From a virus, in the IMG/VR virus record IMGVR_UViG_3300022204_000002, positions 1 to 38,674 of that record: a stretch of 38,674 bases of DNA; one strand, 5' to 3'. Shown piece by piece: positions 128-33,332 of the stretch (positions are counted from its first letter, which is position 1; every line of letters begins with the position of its first letter). Below the pieces are notes generated by a model. The model was given only the letters and a program-made list of their open reading frames with translations, made no database searches and was not told the DNA's origin. Both the position numbers and the translations under genes were made by a program.

Positions 128-676
128 ATCCAGGTTTACCTCTGGGAACTTCTCTTTAACTTCGCTTTCGTCCATCCAGAGAATAATTCCCATGTATCGA
201 GCATCGCTGAAGTCTTTCTTTCGTGAGTGCGGGTCAAAGTAGATTCTATCCCATGGTATTTCCTCTACGAAGATTTCTATTTCACCACGACCATTAGCCC
301 TAACATCAACGATTGCCCCGCCGTATCCCTCGATAAAGAAATTCTCGGCTACATCGGTTTTGACACTCTCAAAGTCATTATTATCTGCAACGTACCTTAG
401 TGCGTCCGTTATGGCTTGCGCGGTCTCTTCATGCTCTTGGGTGCGCGGATAGGCTTTTGGGTCGGTATGTCTTAGCCCGTACATACCAAGCAAGCCCTCA
501 ACCTTTGGCTTTACTCGATTAACAACAATAGGAGCTTGGTTTCTTGCGGCGAGCTTAGTGCGTTCTGCCTCTGTCCATTGCTTATGGTCGTAATAGTCAC
601 GGCATCGCTCTGACAGGAAACGAGCGTCAAGCGTGTTATTGAGGAAATCCTCTACCTTTTCGCGTTCGCTAATCAT
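1..676 (-). CDS. Portal protein, N-terminal part (gene crosses contig join)
   Basis: This is the 5' part of a 612-codon portal gene. Translation starts at the ATG at 676-674, which overlaps the TGA of the terminase gene (ATGA). It begins MISEREKVEDFL and runs open to base 1, then continues in frame from 38547 down to 37385. The length, the start 'QAPIVVNRVKPKVEGLLG', and the position after the terminase match P22-type portals, the dodecameric ring at one capsid vertex through which DNA is packaged and ejected. The in-frame join shows that the contig is circular. The family call is from remembered sequence patterns. Confidence 0.85.
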   Translation of the reverse strand, partial: MISEREKVEDFLNNTLDARFLSERCRDYYDHKQWTEAERTKLAARNQAPIVVNRVKPKVEGLLGMYGLRHTDPKAYPRTQEHEETAQAITDALRYVADNNDFESVKTDVAENFFIEGYGGAIVDVRANGRGEIEIFVEEIPWDRIYFDPHSRKKDFSDARYMGIILWMDESEVKEKFPEVNLDELSTQEEIDEETFEDKPKWAYADDKKRRYRIALHFGIKDGMW

Positions 677-2091
677 CGCCAGCCGCTTGCATCTTCTTCA
701 AAACCATATGTATCTCTAGAGTTCTCTTCAGGCTCGTCTTGTATTGACATTGGCGCTCTAACTGCTGTTGCTAAATATCTAAATCCATCAGCAGGATCAG
801 AAGCCCAGTTATGCAATGGATTGTCTCTAAACCGCTTAAGCTTATCATCCCATTCATACTGGTATGCCTTAAGTGCCTCCATTCCATCTTCACATCGCTC
901 TGAAATAGCCGTCTTTCTAAGCATCTGCCTTACATATTTTAGACCATCTGAGACAGATAGTGTAGATAATACACGAACCTTTCCCCAACCAAAAGCAGCA
1001 GAGAACTGCTCTTGAACGCTTTTCTTTGACCCTAATCGCTTAGCTTTAGCGTCATGAGGCAGGTAAACGCACTCATAGTCGTATTCTTGTCGATGTTCTG
1101 CACCCTCTTCGTTTCCGTCTTTTGTAATGACAATATCATCATCGACTATGTCTATTTTTGTGCTTATTCCTGTCATTATTGATATGTAGTGGTCTAAATC
1201 CTTGAAGTTATTCGCGTAATAATCAATAACCCTGACTTCATTAGCTATCAGCTGATAAAACCATATAGCTGTCGCATCTTTTCTGCCTATATCAAGAGCT
1301 GCACAGACAGGAAAGTCTTTGTCGTGGTCAAACCAGCAATATCTGCCCTCATCAATCAACTTGTTAAGCTCTGCGCCCCAGATTGCACCAAGGATTGCAG
1401 CATCAAACGAGCAAAAGTACTCCTGCCGATATAAGGCCATTCCCATATCAATACCATATGTATCGACATATTCAGCCATTTCAACTTCAAGCTCTGCCGC
1501 CGTCAGCATACCTGTCTGCTCTACTGTGAGCTTTTGTGCAAAGGCTTCTGGGTTCTTTAGTGCTGATTTAAACGTCTTGTATGCATGGTTTTTACCGCGT
1601 GGAGTTGTGATGTAAAGCTGCCAGCCCTTATTTTCCGCAAGAATCGGCCTTAGATAGCCTCTAGCGCTTGGGTTTGCTTGCGCCCATTCAGAATAAACAA
1701 TCCCAGCTGGTGTAGAGCCTATTGAGCCTTCGTAGTTATCTGATCCTAGTGCTTGCCATGTGGATCCGTTCTTAAACTTGATGAACATTTCCTGATCTCT
1801 GGTGGTTTCCCTTATTTCATGCGGGAAAGCCTCGTCTATTCTTTTTCTACCAGAGTGTGGGTTAACAGCTTCCCAGATAGCTTTTCTGACCTGAGTTGCT
1901 TGTGGAAGCATGTGCCAGTAGTTTGCTGGTCTTTCGAGTGCTGCAACTGCGGTTCTGTGAAGGGCTACTTCATCCTTTCCCGATCTTCTGTGCCAGATCA
2001 GCTCTGCATGTCTTCCGCCATTTTCCAGGTAGCTCCATGCTTCCATTTGGTATGGCCTTGGCTTCCAGTTATTTGGAATCTGTATTGCCAA
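673..2091 (-). CDS. terL: Terminase large subunit
   Basis: ATP-driven DNA packaging motor with nuclease. The 472 residues hold an adenine-binding-type PRPYQ (11-15), a Walker A variant RRSGKD (35-40), a Walker B GIVYSEWA (130-137), a coupling motif ITTPRG (161-166), and nuclease acidic residues in ALDIGRKD (265-272) and ASDPADGF near the C terminus. The start is a TTG that overlaps the end of the small-subunit gene by 23 nt. The next in-frame ATG (codon 16) would remove PRPYQ, so the TTG is preferred. The TGA overlaps the portal ATG. Confidence 0.92.
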   Translation of the reverse strand: MAIQIPNNWKPRPYQMEAWSYLENGGRHAELIWHRRSGKDEVALHRTAVAALERPANYWHMLPQATQVRKAIWEAVNPHSGRKRIDEAFPHEIRETTRDQEMFIKFKNGSTWQALGSDNYEGSIGSTPAGIVYSEWAQANPSARGYLRPILAENKGWQLYITTPRGKNHAYKTFKSALKNPEAFAQKLTVEQTGMLTAAELEVEMAEYVDTYGIDMGMALYRQEYFCSFDAAILGAIWGAELNKLIDEGRYCWFDHDKDFPVCAALDIGRKDATAIWFYQLIANEVRVIDYYANNFKDLDHYISIMTGISTKIDIVDDDIVITKDGNEEGAEHRQEYDYECVYLPHDAKAKRLGSKKSVQEQFSAAFGWGKVRVLSTLSVSDGLKYVRQMLRKTAISERCEDGMEALKAYQYEWDDKLKRFRDNPLHNWASDPADGFRYLATAVRAPMSIQDEPEENSRDTYGFEEDASGWR

Positions 2092-4129: not shown

Positions 4130-4215
4130 ATAACCAAATAAATCGAGCAGACCGCGAGGTCTACGCGCCTTGTTCAATTTGAGGAGCTGGCGGCTCCTCA
4201 TTTACAACGTTAGGC
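4128..4215 (-). repeat. attC-like site M7
   Basis: Left core GCCTAAC (it contains the ACP stop TAA), right core GTTATGT. Inner arms AAATGAGGAGCC and GGTCTGCTCGATTT, with an extra base in the right arm. Confidence 0.85.
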
Positions 4216-4446
4216 TTCAAAGTGTTTATACACATCACCAACAGTTTTCCATTGCTCACAAACCTCATCAGGAATATGAACGTCAAACTCTTCTTCTACA
4301 GCCATTACCATTTCTACCTCATCAACTGAGTCAGCACCAAGCTCATCGGCTATATGATCCTCAGGCTTTATATCGTCAGGGCTTCCTTCCAGCCCTAGCC
4401 ATTCAAAAAGAATGTTGTTAATTCGTTCTTTAGTTGTCTTTGGCAT
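4210..4446 (-). CDS. acpP: Acyl carrier protein (cassette gene)
   Basis: 78 residues, very acidic, with the carrier-protein signature DELGADSVDEVEMVMAVEEEF. Ser40 is the expected 4'-phosphopantetheine site; the usual DSL is DSV here. The length equals that of bacterial AcpP. If activated by the host holo-ACP synthase it would carry acyl chains in the cytoplasm for fatty-acid or lipid synthesis, or occupy ACP partners. It is bounded by attC sites M6 and M7, and the core at its 5' end (GTTAGGC) exactly matches its own left core (GCCTAAC). It is therefore a complete mobile cassette. Ribosome binding site AGGAAA. Confidence 0.88.
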   Translation of the reverse strand: MPKTTKERINNILFEWLGLEGSPDDIKPEDHIADELGADSVDEVEMVMAVEEEFDVHIPDEVCEQWKTVGDVYKHFEA

Positions 4447-9929: not shown

Positions 9930-10334
9930 ATGAAACAAGGCGTATGCAGGCACTTTAAAGGGCTTTTACTCCGCAACGAACCGTGCGGCGCAGGACTTGA
10001 TGTGCAAGAGGTTACAGGCGGAGAAAAGCTTGGTTGGCTGACTAGAACGCCATGCCTAAAAAGCAACAATAGCGCTGTGATTTGTGACTCTTATTCTGAG
10101 CCAACACAAAAAGAGATTGAGGAATCAGAGGCCGACATGAGAGCAGCTATGGATAGAATCATCAAGGCTCAACCATTAATTGCAGAGATAAAAATAGAAC
10201 ACGGTAAAACCAATGCTAGTGGAACTAAGGTATGCCCGGTTTGCAATAACAAGCTCCATTACTCAGTAGCAGAATGTAACGGGCATGTATGGGGAAAATG
10301 CGAAACAGACGGCTGCCTGAGTTGGATGGAGTAG
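9930..10334 (+). CDS. Cys-rich protein with zinc-knuckle-like ends (cassette gene)
   Basis: 134 residues. The N terminus has CRHFKGLLLRNEPCGAG, a pattern seen in small phage proteins. The C terminus has CPVCNNKLHYS and further Cys at ECNGHVWGKCETDGC, likely a zinc-binding ribbon. The middle is a helical, acidic stretch (EIEESEADMRAAMDRI). Good ribosome binding site GGAG. Role unknown. Confidence 0.65.
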   Translation: MKQGVCRHFKGLLLRNEPCGAGLDVQEVTGGEKLGWLTRTPCLKSNNSAVICDSYSEPTQKEIEESEADMRAAMDRIIKAQPLIAEIKIEHGKTNASGTKVCPVCNNKLHYSVAECNGHVWGKCETDGCLSWME

Positions 10335-11799: not shown

Positions 11800-11881
11800 C
11801 ATTTTAGCTAATTTGCTGCCCGCAAATATAGCTTAAAGAGCGCACCGCTTCACGCAGTCAAAATTTAACGTATTGTTATTT
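11794..11881 (+). repeat. attC-like site P8 (near-identical to P4)
   Basis: Left core AGCTAAC, right core GTTATTT. It shares about 60 bp with P4 and differs only near the left core and in the right arm. Confidence 0.8.
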
Positions 11882-11905
11882 GGCATTTTGCCTACGGAGA
11901 AAGAA

Positions 11906-12223
11906 ATGCTAGACGAGAAAATAGATGAATTGATTGGCCAGTTGTCGAACTGTGACCTAAGAACCAGTGTTGGTGTAGATAAAGCAAAGAGGGTGCTTAG
12001 GCTAGCACTAAGGGAGCAAGATCGAGACGCAATACATGTGAGCAAAAAGACAGTAGGACACATTACTAACTTGATAGCTGATGAGGTTGGCTTTTTTAAT
12101 GGCTGGCAGGTATCGCGCGAAACAATGCTTGATGCGTGTGAGAAGGCTGCAAAACGAATTGAGAGATATTTGAAGCGTAAGCACATGCGCGAGTTTGGCC
12201 CAAAGACCGGGCATGCAAAATAA
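11906..12223 (+). CDS. Hypothetical helical protein (cassette gene)
   Basis: 105 residues, largely helical and basic at the end (KAAKRIERYLKRKHMREFG). GGAGAAAGAA precedes the ATG at 11906. The cassette begins with GTTATTT and ends with AAATAAC, an exact match. No recognised motif. Confidence 0.6.
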   Translation: MLDEKIDELIGQLSNCDLRTSVGVDKAKRVLRLALREQDRDAIHVSKKTVGHITNLIADEVGFFNGWQVSRETMLDACEKAAKRIERYLKRKHMREFGPKTGHAK

Positions 12224-19798: not shown

Positions 19799-19818
19799 CA
19801 GCCGGGGAAAGACTATGA
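19723..19818 (+). CDS. 31-residue leader peptide in attC P14
   Basis: Reads METVNTEKENSTNADAERLV and ends TAGERL. AGAGGACTTGAA precedes the ATG. Its TGA overlaps the ATG of the methyltransferase gene, so translation of the site-coded peptide probably delivers ribosomes to the cassette gene. GTT of the right core is an in-frame codon, as in P9, P10 and P18. Confidence 0.5.
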   Translation: METVNTEKENSTNADAERLVERFVITAGERL

Positions 19819-20567
19819 AACACCTCGATTTGTTTACAGGCATAGGCGGCTTCACAGTTGCAGCGGAATGGGCAGGGATTGAAACAGTTGCTCATTGCGA
19901 GGTTGATCCAGAGTGCATAAGCGTAATTAAAAAGCACTGGCCCAGTGCCAGGCTACATACTGATATTAGAGAGCTTGACGGAAATGACTATAAACACATC
20001 GACATCATTACGGGGGGCTACCCATGCCAGCCTTTTAGCGTTGCCGGAAGTCAAAAAGCGCAAAAAGATGACCGCTACATCTGGCCGGAAATGTTGCGAG
20101 TTATTGCACAAGCAAAACCAGCTTGGGCAGTTTGTGAAAATGTTTATGGCCACATCAGATTGGGACTGGACAGTGTGTTGCATGACCTGGAAAGCATCGG
20201 CTACGCCTGCCAATCGTTTGTTATTCCAGCTCTTGCCACGGGTGCAAACCATAACAGGGAAAGAGTTTTTATTATCGCCAACTCCGCAAGCAATGGATGC
20301 GATGGTGGCAAGACCTCCAGAAGCAATGGAAAAGCACATGATGGGCCCAAGGAAAGGCCGCACCAAAATAGGAACAATGAAAGACGTGGCAGTGTACGGT
20401 TTGGAGTGGACTGGAAAGGCAACACGGCAGGGCGAAGGGGAACTCAACCCCCGCCGATTAGAGTGGATGATGAACTACCAAGACGGGCACACAGAATTAG
20501 AATGTTAGGCAGTGCCATAGATCCGTGGATTGCTTACCAGATATTCAGATGTATCCGTGCGGTATAA
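19815..20567 (+). CDS. C5-cytosine DNA methyltransferase (cassette gene)
   Basis: 250 residues. Motif I DLFTGIGGF (5-13), motif IV PCQPFS with catalytic C71, ENV (108-110), motif VIII NRERVF (146-151) and a C-terminal RIRMLGSAIDP (GNAVVP-type motif IX/X). It would methylate cytosine in phage DNA to evade restriction. The target-recognition part is short and an overlapping frame is open (see findings). It is bounded by P14 and P15. Confidence 0.88.
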   Translation: MKHLDLFTGIGGFTVAAEWAGIETVAHCEVDPECISVIKKHWPSARLHTDIRELDGNDYKHIDIITGGYPCQPFSVAGSQKAQKDDRYIWPEMLRVIAQAKPAWAVCENVYGHIRLGLDSVLHDLESIGYACQSFVIPALATGANHNRERVFIIANSASNGCDGGKTSRSNGKAHDGPKERPHQNRNNERRGSVRFGVDWKGNTAGRRGTQPPPIRVDDELPRRAHRIRMLGSAIDPWIAYQIFRCIRAV

Positions 20568-26067: not shown

Positions 26068-27771
26068 TTAATCTGCCTCTCTTTCTTTGATTGCGCCTGG
26101 AGTACCAGCGGCGGTTATTCCAGCAGCGGCATTTAATGCCCTTCTTCCTTTTGCAATTTCTGCCGCTTCTCTAATTAGTTTATTATTTGATGCAATAGCA
26201 GCATCCAAGCTTAAATCAGATCTTACAAGTAGCTCTGATAACTCTTCAGCCGATCTTGCGGCTTTATTTACATTTGATAAATATGCTCTCGCAATATCCT
26301 CTGCATTATCTCCTGCGCGGATTACTGCATCTGCAAACTTAGCGCCTCTCAGTGTGAGTTTTTGAGCTAATTTTCTTGATACCTGTCCAATTGCTGGTAT
26401 AACAACACCGCCAACTGGGCCGAAAGCAGTTGCTCCAGCAGCTGATCCAATTGCTCCGCCTACAATATTTGTAGCATGACCCTCACTAAATCCGAATCTG
26501 CCTACCAGCTTGGCTATGTTTGCAGTGGTTGTGCCTTTTACGACATCCTTCATGGCATTAATCTCTTCAGCCTTAAAGAATCTTCTCCTTTTGGGGTTTG
26601 CTAAAATCTGCCTGAACTGCACTACTAAGCCGTTCTCAAAACCACTAGCCTGAAGGCTGGCCTTCTCAAACGCCTCATTAATTATTTCACTTCGCCTTGC
26701 TCTGCCCCATAGCGCCCTAGCCACTTTGTATTTTGGCCCTATCTCTGAAGTAGGGACATTGCCTTTTATAAATGAACTTGGACTTGCAGAATCAAGAAAA
26801 GAGTCTATCTCATCTATTGCTATAGCCCCCAGTCTTGCATCAGATAGCTTTGTGGCATCTGCTGCGCTTTGCGCGACCTGCCTAATAGTATCCACATCTG
26901 AAAGACTCTTTTTTCCAATTTCTTCGTTTAACCTGCGAACCAAGGCAAAAGAATCTGGAGTTAAATCACGGTCTAGTCCTTCTTTTTGCAGTTTTTTCTC
27001 TATTTTCTTTACAAGGCTTTTCATTGCTACTGACTTAACAGCAACTCCAGAGTTATCAAGCTCCTTATAAACTGCTCTTGATGCATCTTTGATTTGATCT
27101 ATATCAGGTGCAGCCTCGACAACAGCACGTCTAACCTCTCGGCTTTTTGCGGCCTGTTTTGTGCGGCTTCCCGCTTTTATAACACCACGTGCAGAAGCTA
27201 GTCCAAGCCCCTCTATTAAAGCCGTTGGAATAGTGGTAGCAGCAGCAGCTAATGCAGGGCTTTTGGTTGCCTCAAATGTCTCGTCACCTAGAAAAGTCTC
27301 AGCTGATTTTAGCGCCTCCCCTACAGGCTTCAAGACTTCCCCTACAGCTTGTAATCCCTTTTTACCTGCCTCTGTCTTTGGTTTGTATGTTAAAGCCTCT
27401 CTAGTGGCTTCTACGGCTTCTGCGCCTGCTCTTGACGCGTCTTCAGGGCTTCTAGCACCTGCCGCACCAAAAATGCCAGCTATCCCGGCAGCTGGCTCAG
27501 CAAGCGCTCCAGTAAGCATGGTTGCGGCAGGCTCTAATACGGCCCCAATAGATTCGCCAATGCCTCCGCTATCGCGTCTGTCAGCCCCAGCGCCGACATC
27601 ATCTTGCACACTAGATAAGCCAGCGGTATCTGCCACAGTAGATCTAACATCTTGCTCTCCTTGTTTTGCTAAAGCTCTTAATCTATTAAGTTCTTGGCGC
27701 GGCGAAAGCACGGTTTCTTGCTGAACTGCAAGCCGTCTTAGCCTATTTAATTCTTCTCTAGGTGTTGGCAT
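26068..27771 (-). CDS. DNA ejection protein (gp16-like, putative)
   Basis: 567 residues. Two copies of an N-terminal motif (PREELNRLRRLAVQQ, PRQELNRLRALAKQG), an Ala/Gly-rich stretch (about 70-130), and a late hydrophobic Gly/Ala-rich section (NIVGGAIGSAAGATAFGPVG) that could enter membranes. Size and position before the tailspike fit the large P22-type ejection protein. The ATG overlaps the previous TAA by one base. Confidence 0.65.
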   Translation of the reverse strand: MPTPREELNRLRRLAVQQETVLSPRQELNRLRALAKQGEQDVRSTVADTAGLSSVQDDVGAGADRRDSGGIGESIGAVLEPAATMLTGALAEPAAGIAGIFGAAGARSPEDASRAGAEAVEATREALTYKPKTEAGKKGLQAVGEVLKPVGEALKSAETFLGDETFEATKSPALAAAATTIPTALIEGLGLASARGVIKAGSRTKQAAKSREVRRAVVEAAPDIDQIKDASRAVYKELDNSGVAVKSVAMKSLVKKIEKKLQKEGLDRDLTPDSFALVRRLNEEIGKKSLSDVDTIRQVAQSAADATKLSDARLGAIAIDEIDSFLDSASPSSFIKGNVPTSEIGPKYKVARALWGRARRSEIINEAFEKASLQASGFENGLVVQFRQILANPKRRRFFKAEEINAMKDVVKGTTTANIAKLVGRFGFSEGHATNIVGGAIGSAAGATAFGPVGGVVIPAIGQVSRKLAQKLTLRGAKFADAVIRAGDNAEDIARAYLSNVNKAARSAEELSELLVRSDLSLDAAIASNNKLIREAAEIAKGRRALNAAAGITAAGTPGAIKEREAD

Positions 27772-28964
27772 TACTGGCCGCCGAATCTCGCCTTAAGCTC
27801 ATCAAGCTCTGCTTGCTCTTCAGGAGTAAGCCTGTCTCTTTCTTCCTTTTTCATCTGGATAAACTCTGCTATCGTATTCCCTGGCGTACCAAGAAACAGC
27901 GCAGCCTCCTCGAGGTTAGTAGCTAATTTATGTTGTGCATCACGCTTTTCAGTGAGCCATTGCTTTAGCTCTTCCTCATCAAGCTTTGTTGGCAGCGCTG
28001 TATCCAGCGCAAATTGCAATTCTGCCTCTGACAATGCGCCAAAAGTCACAGCCCCAATCACATCCAAACCAAGCCTGCCTTTTAGGTTAGCAAGCTTTAC
28101 TGATGCAGATCTAATAGAAGGCAGTCTTCCTTCGATGGCACCTGTTTTTGCCCCCTCATCAAGCAACCTTATACCTTCGTCTATATTTCTGATGTTTTTC
28201 CTTACGTCACCAAGAGTTTTAAAGGATGCAACTGAACTTTTAATGGCTTCCGATGCGGCCCCGCGCTCTCCAGCCCTCAACCCCTGTAATTCTGCTCCGC
28301 GCTCTTCTGCTGCTTTTATTAGTTCCTCATTTGCCTCTGATGGCGTTTTTGTCTCTATTTTCCCGCTTTTATATACTAATTGGGTAACTCCTCCTGGCAG
28401 TATCTTAGATGATTGAACTTGATCCACGCCCGCTGCTTTAGGCTCTGTCGGGTCTGCCTTTATCAACCCCTCCCTCTCAGCCACGGCAATACCCTGGCTT
28501 ATAAAATCCCTTGCAGACTGCGGGTCGGTTTCTAGCAGTTGAATAAACTGGTCTGTTTCATCGGTTCCATTCACTACAGATAAACCACGGTCAATGCCAG
28601 ATTGAAGCCTCTCTTTTCTTTTAAGCGCAATACCTTTAACGCGCTCTACATTTTCTGGAGTAATTCCACCCTTAAATATCTCATCAGCCTTAATGAACTC
28701 ACGAATTGCGTTATCCTGCGTTTCCTTTTCAAAAGCCTCTGACTCTTTTCTGATTCTTTCCTGCTCAATCTGCTGCTGTTTTTGCATCTGCTGTGATTGG
28801 CGCTGTTGCAGCGTTTCACGTTGTAACTGCAACCCTTCGCGCTGTAGACCCTGCTGCTGTTGGGACCGCTCATCTTCTCGTTTTTGCTGCACAAGTGCTT
28901 GCAGCGGAGAAACATCTAGTGTTTCACGTGAAACACTAAGTGGTATATTTGGATTTAATGGCAT
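27771..28964 (-). CDS. DNA ejection protein (gp20-like, putative), carries parS
   Basis: 397 residues. A Gln-rich coiled coil near the N terminus (about 25-80, LQRETLQQRQSQQMQKQQQI) and a helical remainder. Position two of three in the ejection set. Codons 10-15 (V-S-R-E-T) contain the perfect parS site at 28920-28935. No enzymatic motif. Confidence 0.62.
   Translation of the reverse strand: MPLNPNIPLSVSRETLDVSPLQALVQQKREDERSQQQQGLQREGLQLQRETLQQRQSQQMQKQQQIEQERIRKESEAFEKETQDNAIREFIKADEIFKGGITPENVERVKGIALKRKERLQSGIDRGLSVVNGTDETDQFIQLLETDPQSARDFISQGIAVAEREGLIKADPTEPKAAGVDQVQSSKILPGGVTQLVYKSGKIETKTPSEANEELIKAAEERGAELQGLRAGERGAASEAIKSSVASFKTLGDVRKNIRNIDEGIRLLDEGAKTGAIEGRLPSIRSASVKLANLKGRLGLDVIGAVTFGALSEAELQFALDTALPTKLDEEELKQWLTEKRDAQHKLATNLEEAALFLGTPGNTIAEFIQMKKEERDRLTPEEQAELDELKARFGGQ
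28917..28938. promoter_or_regulatory. parS centromere-like site (ParB-binding consensus)
   Basis: 28920-28935 is TGTTTCACGTGAAACA, identical to the bacterial chromosomal parS consensus. The palindrome extends to 22 bp (28917-28938). It lies inside the gp20-like gene. A random match to this 16-mer in a 38.5-kb genome would be expected about once in 100,000 genomes. Confidence 0.85.
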
Positions 28965-28973
28965 TTTTATCCC

Positions 28974-29744
28974 CTATATTGACGCATAGACTGGAGCGCC
29001 ACCACCACCTGAAATAAGTGGCGCAGTTCCTGCTGAGGAGGTAATTGGGGCTGGTGTGCCTCTTTGCGCTGTAGCTGAGTTACCAAATAGTGAATACAGG
29101 TTTGCTCCGGTCGCCATTCCAGTGTTTAGCCCAGCAAGCAACGGACTCCTTTGTGCAACTTGACCAGCCGCCAAAACATTGCCTCTCTGAGTCATAAGAT
29201 CACCTATATTCCCAGCCCCCTGTATTGCGCCCATTCCTGTCTGCACAGCAGCATTAAGCCCTGTAGAGGTTAGGTTTTGACTCGCGCCAATCAAGCCTAG
29301 GCGTTGGTTTATGTTCTGATTTACAAGATCAGAACCAAGAAGCAATAAGCTATTCTGTAGCGCCTTGGCTGTACCACCAGAACCCACTTTCCCTCTCGCG
29401 GCCTCGCTTTGGAAAAGCCTTGATTGAGCTTCATCTGCCATTGATTTAAAGAATGGGTTTTGTGTGACGTATTTCCTTTGTGTCATTGGGCTTGTAATTA
29501 AGCTTCTTAAACCAGGAATATCCACATCAGCAAGACGACTAGCCTCTCTTCCGCCAACCCTTCTGAAAGGCCATGTATCCTTTCTGACCTGCTTTTGGGT
29601 TTCTCGCTGCAATTCTGCCGCATGCATAGCGGCCTGCGCCTGTATGTCAGCGCCTTTTAATGCTGCCTTGTTTGCAGAAGAAGACGCCTTTGATGCTATT
29701 ATAGCGCTTCCTATTGTTGCTGCGGCCATTGCACCTGTAGCCAT
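28974..29744 (-). CDS. DNA ejection protein (gp7-like, putative)
   Basis: 256 residues from the ATG at 29744 (GAGG 10 bases upstream; three bases after the GNAT stop). It opens with an Ala-rich membrane-active-looking segment (MATGAMAAATIGSAIIASKA), then a coiled-coil-like region and a Gly/Ala/Ser-rich C half. First of the three ejection-type genes. Homology to P22 gp7 is by position and composition only. Confidence 0.62.
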   Translation of the reverse strand: MATGAMAAATIGSAIIASKASSSANKAALKGADIQAQAAMHAAELQRETQKQVRKDTWPFRRVGGREASRLADVDIPGLRSLITSPMTQRKYVTQNPFFKSMADEAQSRLFQSEAARGKVGSGGTAKALQNSLLLLGSDLVNQNINQRLGLIGASQNLTSTGLNAAVQTGMGAIQGAGNIGDLMTQRGNVLAAGQVAQRSPLLAGLNTGMATGANLYSLFGNSATAQRGTPAPITSSAGTAPLISGGGGAPVYASI

Positions 29745-29746
29745 TA

Positions 29747-30211
29747 TTAAACCCTCACCATTGCGTAAGCATGCACATTGCGCCACTCACCATTACGAAA
29801 CCAGTATTTCCTATGAGTGCCTTCTCTCTTCATACCAAGCTTTTCGGTTAGCTTAATGCTTGGGATATTGTCTTCCTCAACAAAGCCAACAATTCTCTGA
29901 ACATTCAAACGTTCAAATGCCCAATATTTTGCAGCCCTTACTATTTTATCCATAATATCCTTGTTCAGCCATTTACCATGATAGCTAGGATCAACCACTA
30001 AATCCTCCTGAATCTGGCGCAATGGGACATAGTTAGTTAGCATAAAATACCCAATGATTTCTTTATCATTACATAAAGAGAAGTTTATACCGTTTATTAT
30101 AGTACCCTCAAACTCAGAAAGCGTCATAATTTCTGGGAAACGCCCGCATTTGCGCCATAAATCAAAGATCTCTAGCACTGGCGGTGATTCCAATTGTATT
30201 AGATCTATCAT
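29747..30211 (-). CDS. GNAT acetyltransferase
   Basis: 154 residues. GNAT motifs: EEDLVVDPSYHGKWL-like acetyl-CoA region at about 68-85 and FVEEDNIPSIKLTEKLGMKREG (about 110-131), the classical end of the domain. It lies among virion genes. It may modify a virion or host protein; the target is unknown. ATGA overlap with the tail gene upstream. Confidence 0.78.
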   Translation of the reverse strand: MIDLIQLESPPVLEIFDLWRKCGRFPEIMTLSEFEGTIINGINFSLCNDKEIIGYFMLTNYVPLRQIQEDLVVDPSYHGKWLNKDIMDKIVRAAKYWAFERLNVQRIVGFVEEDNIPSIKLTEKLGMKREGTHRKYWFRNGEWRNVHAYAMVRV

Positions 30212-31926
30212 GTATAAAAATCAGGCACCTTGTCTTTTGTGGCTATATTTGTCGATTGGTAATGAACATCTGAAAAGTGTAAAAATGGATCTGGAACTGC
30301 GCCACTAGATGTTATATTGTTCGCACTCAAATACACCCTAACCACAAGCACACCATCAGGCTCTAAATTATCTGAATCTATTTGTGATCCAGATGGAGAG
30401 GCAGCAGAAATCTGAGTCTCTGTAATTATATGCTGATACTGAGTAGTGCTGGCATTGCCAGCAAACGTACCAGAAACCGGAGCAATAAAGGCCGCTTGGT
30501 TATGCCCTTTTGCATAAGTGATTTCATAGCCCCATGTCACACTTCCACCTGTAACCAATGTTGAGATATGAGACCAATGAAAGTGCAAATGGATATCTGA
30601 GCCAGCCACGTAGTCATGCGGGATATGGAAATTTACCCACGCTTCATCGTTCACCGCAAACTGAAAAGCTTTTATACCGCCCCGATATGTTGCATCTGAT
30701 GGGTCAGTTGCGCCAACTCCACGCACCCTGATTTCTCCCAACAAATCACGCCAGCCAAAAGTTGGTGTAGTTAAGTCAACTTTTATCCCGTTGCCCGACG
30801 TTTTTGGCAAAAGAAGATTACCCGAAACAGATAGCTTTTCTTGCGGGCTTGATGAGCCTATGCCAAGCCTATCGCTACCAAAATCATATGTTAAATCTGT
30901 CGCTTCTTCCCAAAGAGTATTACCGTTATTCCATGCTGTCATCGCGCCAGCAGATGGTGCATTAAGCGTATCATCTACGTCATGAAGCTCATAATATTCA
31001 TTCCCATTGGTCACATGTACATAGATGGTTCCTGTTGTTGCATGGCTACTTAGCACATACCCAACAACAACCGCATGAGCTGGGCTAGTGGGCTTAGTTC
31101 CAGTGAACTCACCAGCGGTTTCTGAAAGCCAGAGTGTATCGCCCTCACTGTAAGCGCTCGTGTTTATCGGCTCTGAGGCTGTGCCAGTTATTCTTCCAAA
31201 TGTAGAAACGTACCCAAGATCGTTGTCATCAATGCTTTCTGATACTATTCCTATAGTTTTACTGCTAAGCGCTTCTGTTGATGCGTCTGCTTTGGCTATT
31301 GTTGGCTTTGCACCACTTGCGCCATTAACATAGACCACCGTCCCTCTATTAAGAGTGGCACCTGTCTCGTTCTTTGCGCGACCGGGTAAAAACACTTCTT
31401 GGCCTAGATGATAGTGTAATGACCCTCCAGGCATACCTAGGATGGCTGTCTTATCATCATCATTCCATCTAATCATTCCTTCAGATACAGTCTGAGTCGC
31501 AGATGTATCTAGAATTAATGCCTGCAAATTGATTAAATCATTTATTTCATCGTAATTTGTAGCTAGGGATGTACCGAAAAATACATTTCCTTTTGTGGCA
31601 TGAGACGTAGATCTCAGTGTTAAATCATCACCAGACCCAGTTCCTCCTGTGGCAATTTGCCCGCCGCTCCTACCAGCAAGGAGTAAGTAGTTTAATAATT
31701 CTGTGTCAACTTCGCCGATTGAATACACATCAAGGTTTGAGCGCGCTCCCGCTGCTGTGTTTGCTCCAGTTCCGCCTTCTTCTATTTGTACGACACTACC
31801 TCCGCCCGTTTTAGCCCATATAAGATATATGTCACGCAGAAGTCTTTGGAAAAAGGCGTTGGTTTCAGGGTCTTTTGATAACGACGGCGGGATTCTTATC
31901 GGTGGCGGATTGGTTCGAAGTGTCAT
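30208..31926 (-). CDS. Tail needle/fibre-like structural protein
   Basis: 572 residues. The N terminus (PPPIRIPPSLSKDPETNAFF) is followed by a Gly/Thr-rich repetitive region and beta-rich segments (GGSLHYHLGQEVFLPGRAKN, GTTLW-type, then SVTWGYEITYAKGHNQAAF). It occupies the place of P22 gp26 (tail needle) after gp10, but it is longer and fibre-like. It overlaps the gp10-like gene by ATGA. Confidence 0.62.
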   Translation of the reverse strand: MTLRTNPPPIRIPPSLSKDPETNAFFQRLLRDIYLIWAKTGGGSVVQIEEGGTGANTAAGARSNLDVYSIGEVDTELLNYLLLAGRSGGQIATGGTGSGDDLTLRSTSHATKGNVFFGTSLATNYDEINDLINLQALILDTSATQTVSEGMIRWNDDDKTAILGMPGGSLHYHLGQEVFLPGRAKNETGATLNRGTVVYVNGASGAKPTIAKADASTEALSSKTIGIVSESIDDNDLGYVSTFGRITGTASEPINTSAYSEGDTLWLSETAGEFTGTKPTSPAHAVVVGYVLSSHATTGTIYVHVTNGNEYYELHDVDDTLNAPSAGAMTAWNNGNTLWEEATDLTYDFGSDRLGIGSSSPQEKLSVSGNLLLPKTSGNGIKVDLTTPTFGWRDLLGEIRVRGVGATDPSDATYRGGIKAFQFAVNDEAWVNFHIPHDYVAGSDIHLHFHWSHISTLVTGGSVTWGYEITYAKGHNQAAFIAPVSGTFAGNASTTQYQHIITETQISAASPSGSQIDSDNLEPDGVLVVRVYLSANNITSSGAVPDPFLHFSDVHYQSTNIATKDKVPDFYT

Positions 31927-33332
31927 ATTCCTGCCTCAACATCAAGAATGCCAGAATGGATCGAGTAAAATACTGGATCAGATGTTTTTATCCTGAATAT
32001 TCTGCTTAAGGCGGCCCCCAGCACAGACCATTCCACTTTAAACATAAAATCACCGAGCCGCCCAACTTCTCCCCACATTTCATTTGACCACGTTCGCCCG
32101 CCATCATCAGAAACTTGGAGCATAATCACAGGCTCAACGCCTTGACCGCTTAGAAGCCCTACCCCAGCCTCCATTATCAGCTCTAATCGGTTAAACTCAA
32201 CGTCTACACCCGGCGCGCCAATCATGCCACCGTGAAACACTCCGCTATCACGAACCCTTATTATTGAATTTCCATTTTCATCGTATGTTGCAGAGCTTAG
32301 CTCGTACAAATCGCCGGTTATTTCGTCGGCTACTATGTTTTTTCCGTACGCAGCTACAATAGTTTGGCCTCTATATCGCCCTCCGCTAGCTCCAGATGAC
32401 AGCTCAAACCATGCACCTGACTCAGTAAAGCACCATGTTTTATCTTCGGTTGGAAAGGTGAGCATGTAAAAGTTTTGACCATCATATGTGAACGCGCTAC
32501 CTATCGCGTCTGATACAGCGGTATAAGTCGAGAACTCATTAGCCATTGCTATAGTTGAAACAGCAATCCCGCGATCCTGTCCAGTTGTGCGGTATATCTG
32601 TCGATCATCTCCAAGCCAGTAAACGTAAGCATCATTGCTCGCTACAGAGTAAATTGCAGCTATTCCGACCGTTATGATTCCGCCTTCTACTCTGTCGTAT
32701 GGCGGATTACCAACACCTGAGTTATACCACGGCTCCATGGTTACTTCGCCAAAATTCAATAGCAGCTGATTAAACGTATATACCCGCTTTAAATCATCAG
32801 CATTTGATTCTGCTGTTGCGTAATTCAACCCATTGATGGTGGTTGCATCACCAACGTCAGACGTTACAAACCGACCGCCATCACCATCATATATCATCTG
32901 ATTATTGAGGTGAGCGCATGAATTAGGCGTTTCTAGATTTGTATCAGTGATTTCTGATACAGTTGATCCGTCATATTGGTAAGCCCTGCCTCCTGTCACC
33001 ACCACAACATTTGAGCCAATGCCTTCCAGTACACAATACCCAGTCCCTGAAATTGTACCTAGCGATGTATGTGCGCCTGAGCTAGATACAGAAAACAACT
33101 CTGTACCTGCCACCCTATACAAAACACCTTTATGCGTAAGCATCCCTCTATCTTTTGCGGTTGTAGAGGTTGCGCCGAATGATTTTAACCCTGAAAAGGA
33201 GTGCAGAACCTGCTGGCTTCTTGCGCGGACATCTTGTTGCGCTTCTGGGTAGAAATTACGTGTAACCTGTGCAGACAAAGGCAACGATTTGCTTGTGTAT
33301 GACTGACCAGTTACATTGACCTCTACTCTCAT
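31923..33332 (-). CDS. gp10-like DNA stabilisation (tail hub) protein
   Basis: 469 residues. Features of the P22 gp10 family: SQVTRNFYPEAQQ-type start (about 20-34), a propeller-like middle (VLEGIGSNVVVVTGGRAYQY, LNNQMIYDGDGGRFVTSD), and the section YDRVEGGIITVGIAAIYSVA. It forms a hexameric ring that closes the portal after packaging. Its start shares one base with the gp4-like stop. Confidence 0.85.
   Translation of the reverse strand: MRVEVNVTGQSYTSKSLPLSAQVTRNFYPEAQQDVRARSQQVLHSFSGLKSFGATSTTAKDRGMLTHKGVLYRVAGTELFSVSSSGAHTSLGTISGTGYCVLEGIGSNVVVVTGGRAYQYDGSTVSEITDTNLETPNSCAHLNNQMIYDGDGGRFVTSDVGDATTINGLNYATAESNADDLKRVYTFNQLLLNFGEVTMEPWYNSGVGNPPYDRVEGGIITVGIAAIYSVASNDAYVYWLGDDRQIYRTTGQDRGIAVSTIAMANEFSTYTAVSDAIGSAFTYDGQNFYMLTFPTEDKTWCFTESGAWFELSSGASGGRYRGQTIVAAYGKNIVADEITGDLYELSSATYDENGNSIIRVRDSGVFHGGMIGAPGVDVEFNRLELIMEAGVGLLSGQGVEPVIMLQVSDDGGRTWSNEMWGEVGRLGDFMFKVEWSVLGAALSRIFRIKTSDPVFYSIHSGILDVEAGI

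Follow-up and report, generated by a model that had tools for sequence, protein, structure and literature searches.

An exact chromosomal-type parS site in a late gene of a P22-like phage without ParB, and orphan parS sites in other phages

In silico analysis of the IMG/VR record IMGVR_UViG_3300022204_000002 (38,674 nt; positions 1 to 38,674, the whole stretch that is here called the window) revealed direct terminal repeats of 127 bp, and the contig therefore represents a complete genome of about 38.5 kb that is circularly permuted. Portal (P22_portal, E = 6e-45), coat (Phage_capsid_3, E = 4e-38), head closure (Hc3, E = 2e-85), and DNA ejection (E = 2e-17) proteins, together with their gene order, identify the phage as a P22-like podovirus. 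A BNR tail protein with an endosialidase-type N-terminal domain was also recognized; tRNA genes were not found in the window. The late block includes a gp20-like ejection protein gene that harbors an exact copy of the chromosomal parS consensus close to its start. The site and the genes of the late block are as follows.

28920 to 28935, no strand assigned: exact match to the 16-bp chromosomal parS consensus, TGTTTCACGTGAAACA
28917 to 28938, no strand assigned: perfect 22-bp palindrome with parS inside, TAGTGTTTCACGTGAAACACTA
27771 to 28964, minus strand: gp20-like ejection protein gene, with parS in codons 9 to 16 (LSVSRETL) of the variable N terminus
28974 to 29786, minus strand: gp7-like DNA ejection protein gene (PHROG 598 DNA ejection, E = 2e-17), directly upstream of the gp20-like gene
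26068 to 27771, minus strand: gene for a gp16-like protein, related to the putative ejection protein gp19 of virus H6/1, directly downstream of the gp20-like gene
31923 to 33332, minus strand: gp10-like gene for packaged-DNA stabilization and head closure, in the same late block (PHROG 578 head closure Hc3, E = 2e-85)
673 to 2091, minus strand: terminase large subunit gene (PHROG 2 terminase large subunit, E = 5e-22), in the late block across the circular junction

Relatives of the C-terminal half of the gp20-like protein include the putative ejection protein of Pseudoalteromonas virus H6/1 and a protein of Sulfitobacter phage NYA-2014a, and the gp16-like protein has a relative with 62% identity (L127).

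The parS consensus, TGTTYCACGTGRAACA, is a 16-bp palindrome, and the window site matches it at every position. It is the sole match with three or fewer mismatches across the window, the runners-up having four. The symmetry reaches 3 bp past the 16-mer on each side, which adds a further factor of 1 in 64, and in the gp20-like reading frame the palindrome starts at the third base of codon 9 and closes with the last base of codon 16 (L9 S10 V11 S12 R13 E14 T15 L16). Both the exact 16-mer within a 22-bp palindrome and its place near the start of the gp20-like gene, as described in the original prediction, were thereby confirmed. A perfect parS can encode the peptides VSRET or FHVK, the third frame containing a stop codon. 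VSRET occurs once more in the window (small open reading frame 11873 to 12223, plus strand, around position 12109); this copy was rejected as a parS site with four mismatches and is probably a coincidence.

The expected number of exact 16-mers per genome is 1.1e-5 under a third-order Markov model and 1.3e-5 from base composition, i.e., about 1 in 80,000 to 90,000 genomes, close to the 1 in 100,000 given beforehand. Conditional on the peptide SVSRET and the codon usage of the window phage, the probability of the exact 16-mer is 0.0012. Since the scan from which the site originated covered many genomes and many noticeable motifs, these figures are insufficient alone, and the frequency of parS in phages was therefore surveyed. 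Judged in isolation, the window site is hard to set apart from chance.

Chromosomal-type parS sites normally share a replicon with parAB, usually in multiple copies close to the origin. The window departs from this arrangement, having one site and no match to either the ParB_N domain or the ParA-type AAA_31 domain, as expected from the earlier statement that no ParA or ParB gene is visible. Furthermore, no phage-plasmid replication or partition gene was recognized in the window genome. A phage-plasmid with its own ParABS system was considered and ruled out from the missing ParB_N and AAA_31 domains. The accompanying statement that the phage has no integrase stands for the tyrosine type, which had no match in the window genome and to which the result applies. 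With ParA and ParB absent from the phage, host ParB, already suggested as the reader, appears to be the only plausible candidate, and the palindrome is probably a ParB-loading site read by it.

Searches for close relatives with one protein each yielded no locus for gp20, three for gp10, and one for gp16, and a scan of genome contigs gave distant ejection-protein relatives only, with no link to a host. parS was absent within two mismatches from the locus DNA of all 80 gp20 relatives, and exact parS was absent from 50 whole records of gp20 relatives (with a single one-mismatch variant in one record) and from 12 cultured relatives. With zero exact sites in these three sets, conservation in the phage's own family is not claimed. 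The nearest relatives have neither the palindrome nor the VSRET peptide, and their N termini are poorly conserved; a relative with 60% identity in the C-terminal half (L129) has only the first residues of its N terminus in common with the gp20-like protein. The conservation at synonymous positions that had been proposed as a check was not observed in these sets, which contain no close relative. Because VSRET itself is missing from the nearest relatives and the N terminus varies, the comparison does not speak cleanly in either direction on a synonymous loss of the palindrome with retention of the protein. A relative of this protein of Gram-negative-bacteria phages is also encoded on a contig filed as Bacillus subtilis SK6B4 (L225), possibly a mis-assigned phage contig.

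In viral contigs, the exact parS 16-mer was found at at least 120 loci, while the entire viral-contig collection contains 11 copies of a control palindrome (TTGTCTACGTAGACAA) that matches parS in base composition and in its central ACGT, an at least 11-fold excess. Four of the 59 parS contigs obtained from an independent terminase-homology search recur among the at least 120 matches listed. The total is estimated at about 1,800 parS loci in viral contigs, a rough figure with a wide error from the ratio of 4 to 59 and with random order assumed, and by this estimate the excess is about 160-fold. The at least 120 loci do not equal 120 independent phage sites, as clades and at least one host-DNA-like contig are among the matches listed. 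The contig of locus L087 (IMGVR_UViG_3300037518_000322) has 24 parS sites between 91.7 and 112.4 kb, 23 of them TGTTTCACGTGGAACA; it looks like host chromosomal origin-region DNA filed as viral, and host DNA may likewise underlie some other "viral" contigs with an exact parS. This does not apply to every parS contig, since 34 of the 120 parS loci among the matches listed encode a phage terminase that is a relative of the one at locus L119 and the window is a complete phage.

The collection of cultured phages was searched with two probes of 30 bases, each with parS at its center, and with controls of the same flanks and a scrambled core. The parS probes matched 419 and 333 records and the scrambled-core controls 4 and 2. 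Since these matches include imperfect ones, eight phages were checked individually; seven of them have two to six exact parS sites, and ParB_N was found in none of the eight.

Bacillus phage BSTP4 (classed as Salasvirus phi29; L411): four exact TGTTTCACGTGGAACA sites, at 10294, 15755, 17095, and 18612
Inovirus bajarodino virus 6, filamentous (L412): six exact parS sites in 5.9 kb
Bacillus phage vB_BcoS-136: four exact parS sites
Vibrio phage phi 3 (L409): two exact parS sites in each terminal repeat, around the A1/A2 genes
Butyrivibrio virus Bo-Finn: three exact parS sites
Gordonia phage Woes: two exact parS sites
Lactobacillus phage Dionysus: two exact parS sites
Vibrio phage JSF10 (L416): two one-mismatch sites and no exact one, both with CACGTG changed to CATGTG, a coordinated variant

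With viral contigs and cultured phages taken together, orphan parS sites are far above chance level, and the original prediction was partly supported.

A strong retention of parS was observed in a marine phage clade that is unrelated to the window phage. The clade sample consists of 80 loci (L231 to L310), chosen by homology to the L119 terminase regardless of parS. An exact parS lies upstream of terL in 59 of the 80, within 400 bp in 54 of them and at about 1.06 kb in 5 more, the distance being about 50 to 160 bp in most clade members and mostly 77 to 151 bp in L231 to L310. The remainder of the clade has one site with a single mismatch, and elsewhere there is none with one or no mismatch in 0.43 Mb. 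Eleven loci have two sites, TGTTTCACGTGAAACA and TGTTCCACGTGGAACA, spaced 23 to 24 bp apart. These are the two classic ParB-binding variants, and the pairing therefore points to ParB, not another protein, as the reader of the clade site. The flanks of the site differ strongly among members in an ungapped comparison that includes some loci picked for parS. ParB_N was not found in any of 14 clade records scanned, 12 of which bear the site. parS is absent from the cultured relatives HTVC027P and HTVC023P and from five more distant phages, which argues that gain and loss of parS are common.

Sites within coding sequences recur as well. Among the at least 120 matches listed, VSRET reappears in variable N termini of late proteins, and these N termini are probably disordered. 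In a scaffold-like family, VSRET is encoded by an exact parS in the N-terminal tail of L054/L329, L348, and L112. The site is rare in this family (2 of 80, one of the two being the query), and L330, with 78% identity to L329, is without it, which suggests a recent in-frame gain or loss. The sporadic occurrence in scaffold-like N termini resembles the placement in the variable N terminus of the gp20-like protein. Furthermore, a primase-like pair with 74% identity, L092 (7754 to 7769) and L109 (3397 to 3412), has an exact parS in the coding sequence at codon 133-134 in both members.

ParB is a CTP-dependent clamp that is loaded at parS. We propose that the window phage keeps parS for the host's own ParB. 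After injection and circularization, host ParB would bind to the window site, close as a CTP-dependent clamp, and spread across the neighboring late genes. Through such a partition complex, the phage genome, while unintegrated, would be coupled to the ParA-driven segregation machinery of the host, and the most likely payoff would be retention of the phage DNA, which would be passed to both daughter cells with lysis deferred. We are largely confident that the palindrome is a selected ParB site, as judged by the comparisons above. The full chain from host ParB binding through spreading to a benefit in partition may hold or fail with about equal probability. Among the uses listed in the original prediction, namely segregation, placement near the host origin, and interference, the sequence evidence favors none.

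Two known systems led us to prefer partition and retention as the payoff. For phi29, a virulent phage, entrapment of the genome in spores by host Spo0J (ParB) is reported in the passage of PMC9437464 that cites Meijer et al. 2005, and parS mimics of SGI1 hijack the ParABS system of IncC plasmids (PMC10954446). The four sites of BSTP4 agree with the capture of phi29 in spores that is reported to depend on Spo0J. Like BSTP4, the window combines an exact chromosomal-type parS with the lack of ParB, but the phage of the phi29 species carries four sites and infects a host that sporulates, whereas the window phage is P22-like and has one site. SGI1 likewise is a mobile element with parS-like sites that is partitioned via the ParB of another replicon (PMC10954446); it differs in that the ParB is that of a plasmid instead of a chromosome and in that SGI1 has two sites plus a helper protein, Sci. 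The terL clade shares with the window an orphan exact parS and the lack of ParB_N in the records scanned, but its site lies upstream of terL and is widely conserved, whereas the window site lies inside a late gene of one genome. In P1 and RedRock (PMC7157519), parS also holds a phage genome outside the chromosome, but these phages have their own ParA, ParB, and parS type, whereas the window encodes neither protein. A phage without ParB that is read by host ParB is already known from phi29; the new aspect is a P22-like phage with the site in a structural gene.

The main functional rival to partition is silencing of late genes. Here, host ParB would spread from parS and silence the late operon until it is displaced by copy number or by the passage of RNA polymerase, so that the site would time late genes or lysis. 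The position of the window site within the late block and of the clade site shortly upstream of terL in most members agrees with such a role, as does the repression of genes adjoining parS3 and parS4 by Pseudomonas aeruginosa ParB (PMC5521831). However, sites in other phages are scattered over coding regions, the terminal repeat of phi 3 beside the A1/A2 genes, and filamentous phages, and no promoter-like match was found near the window site. We therefore regard gene control as unlikely, if worth keeping in mind.

An accidental origin of the 16-mer, without function, in an N terminus that varies freely would account for a single site that is missing from all relatives examined, and large collections do hold accidental matches, as the 11 copies of the control palindrome illustrate. 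Against this stand the excess over that control in viral contigs (at least 11-fold, about 160-fold by estimate), the 3 bp of additional symmetry per side, and the recurrence of N-terminal placement in unrelated phages, which together make chance an improbable explanation.

It also seems improbable that the site is a decoy, by which a replicating phage would multiply parS and titrate ParB, together with ParB-loaded SMC, off the host origin, disturbing host segregation or division to its own benefit. There is a precedent in the SGI1 parS mimics, which bind the plasmid ParB, stabilize SGI1, and destabilize the plasmid (PMC10954446), and some phages have several sites, but titration would be poorly served by one site per genome, and no sign of host arrest was seen in the window.

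It is very improbable that the palindrome forms an RNA hairpin where the gp20-like reading frame begins and acts as a translation or termination signal with an incidental match to parS: one weak terminator-like match lies on the coding strand (28939 to 28916) and a 76-nt segment at the mRNA start has a folding z of -2.7, but the palindrome is not the stem of the predicted minimum-energy fold, terminator-like matches are at shuffle level (0.8 expected, 1 found), and the exact parS sequence and its enrichment across phages would be left unexplained.

Returning to partition by host ParB, the broader pattern of orphan parS sites outweighs the single window site in interest. Tentatively, and with somewhat less than even confidence, we suggest that hijacking of host ParB through an orphan parS is a widespread strategy of phages without ParB, gained cheaply and repeatedly via VSRET in disordered tails or via a site upstream of terL, and that it would allow strictly extrachromosomal, even virulent, phages to be partitioned with the host chromosome in a deferred infection, of which the window phage would be a P22-like example. 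A survey of orphan parS in phages was not found in the literature searched, the coverage of which leaves many journals outside. If host ParB does load on phage genomes via orphan parS sites, the chromosome segregation machinery would be a common phage target, phages considered to be strictly lytic could survive as DNA that is partitioned without integration, and the capture of phi29 in spores would illustrate a general strategy. As parS sites are short, exact, and easily mutated silently, the idea is directly testable.

Some further genes of the window were recognized. A C-5 cytosine methylase is encoded at 19815 to 20567 (plus strand), its match being limited to positions 1 to 169 of a 324-position profile, and an acyl-carrier-protein-like gene lies at 4210 to 4446 (minus strand). 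A gene for a GNAT-type acetyltransferase (29747 to 30211, minus strand) is located in the late block between a 572-amino-acid gene and the gp7-like gene.
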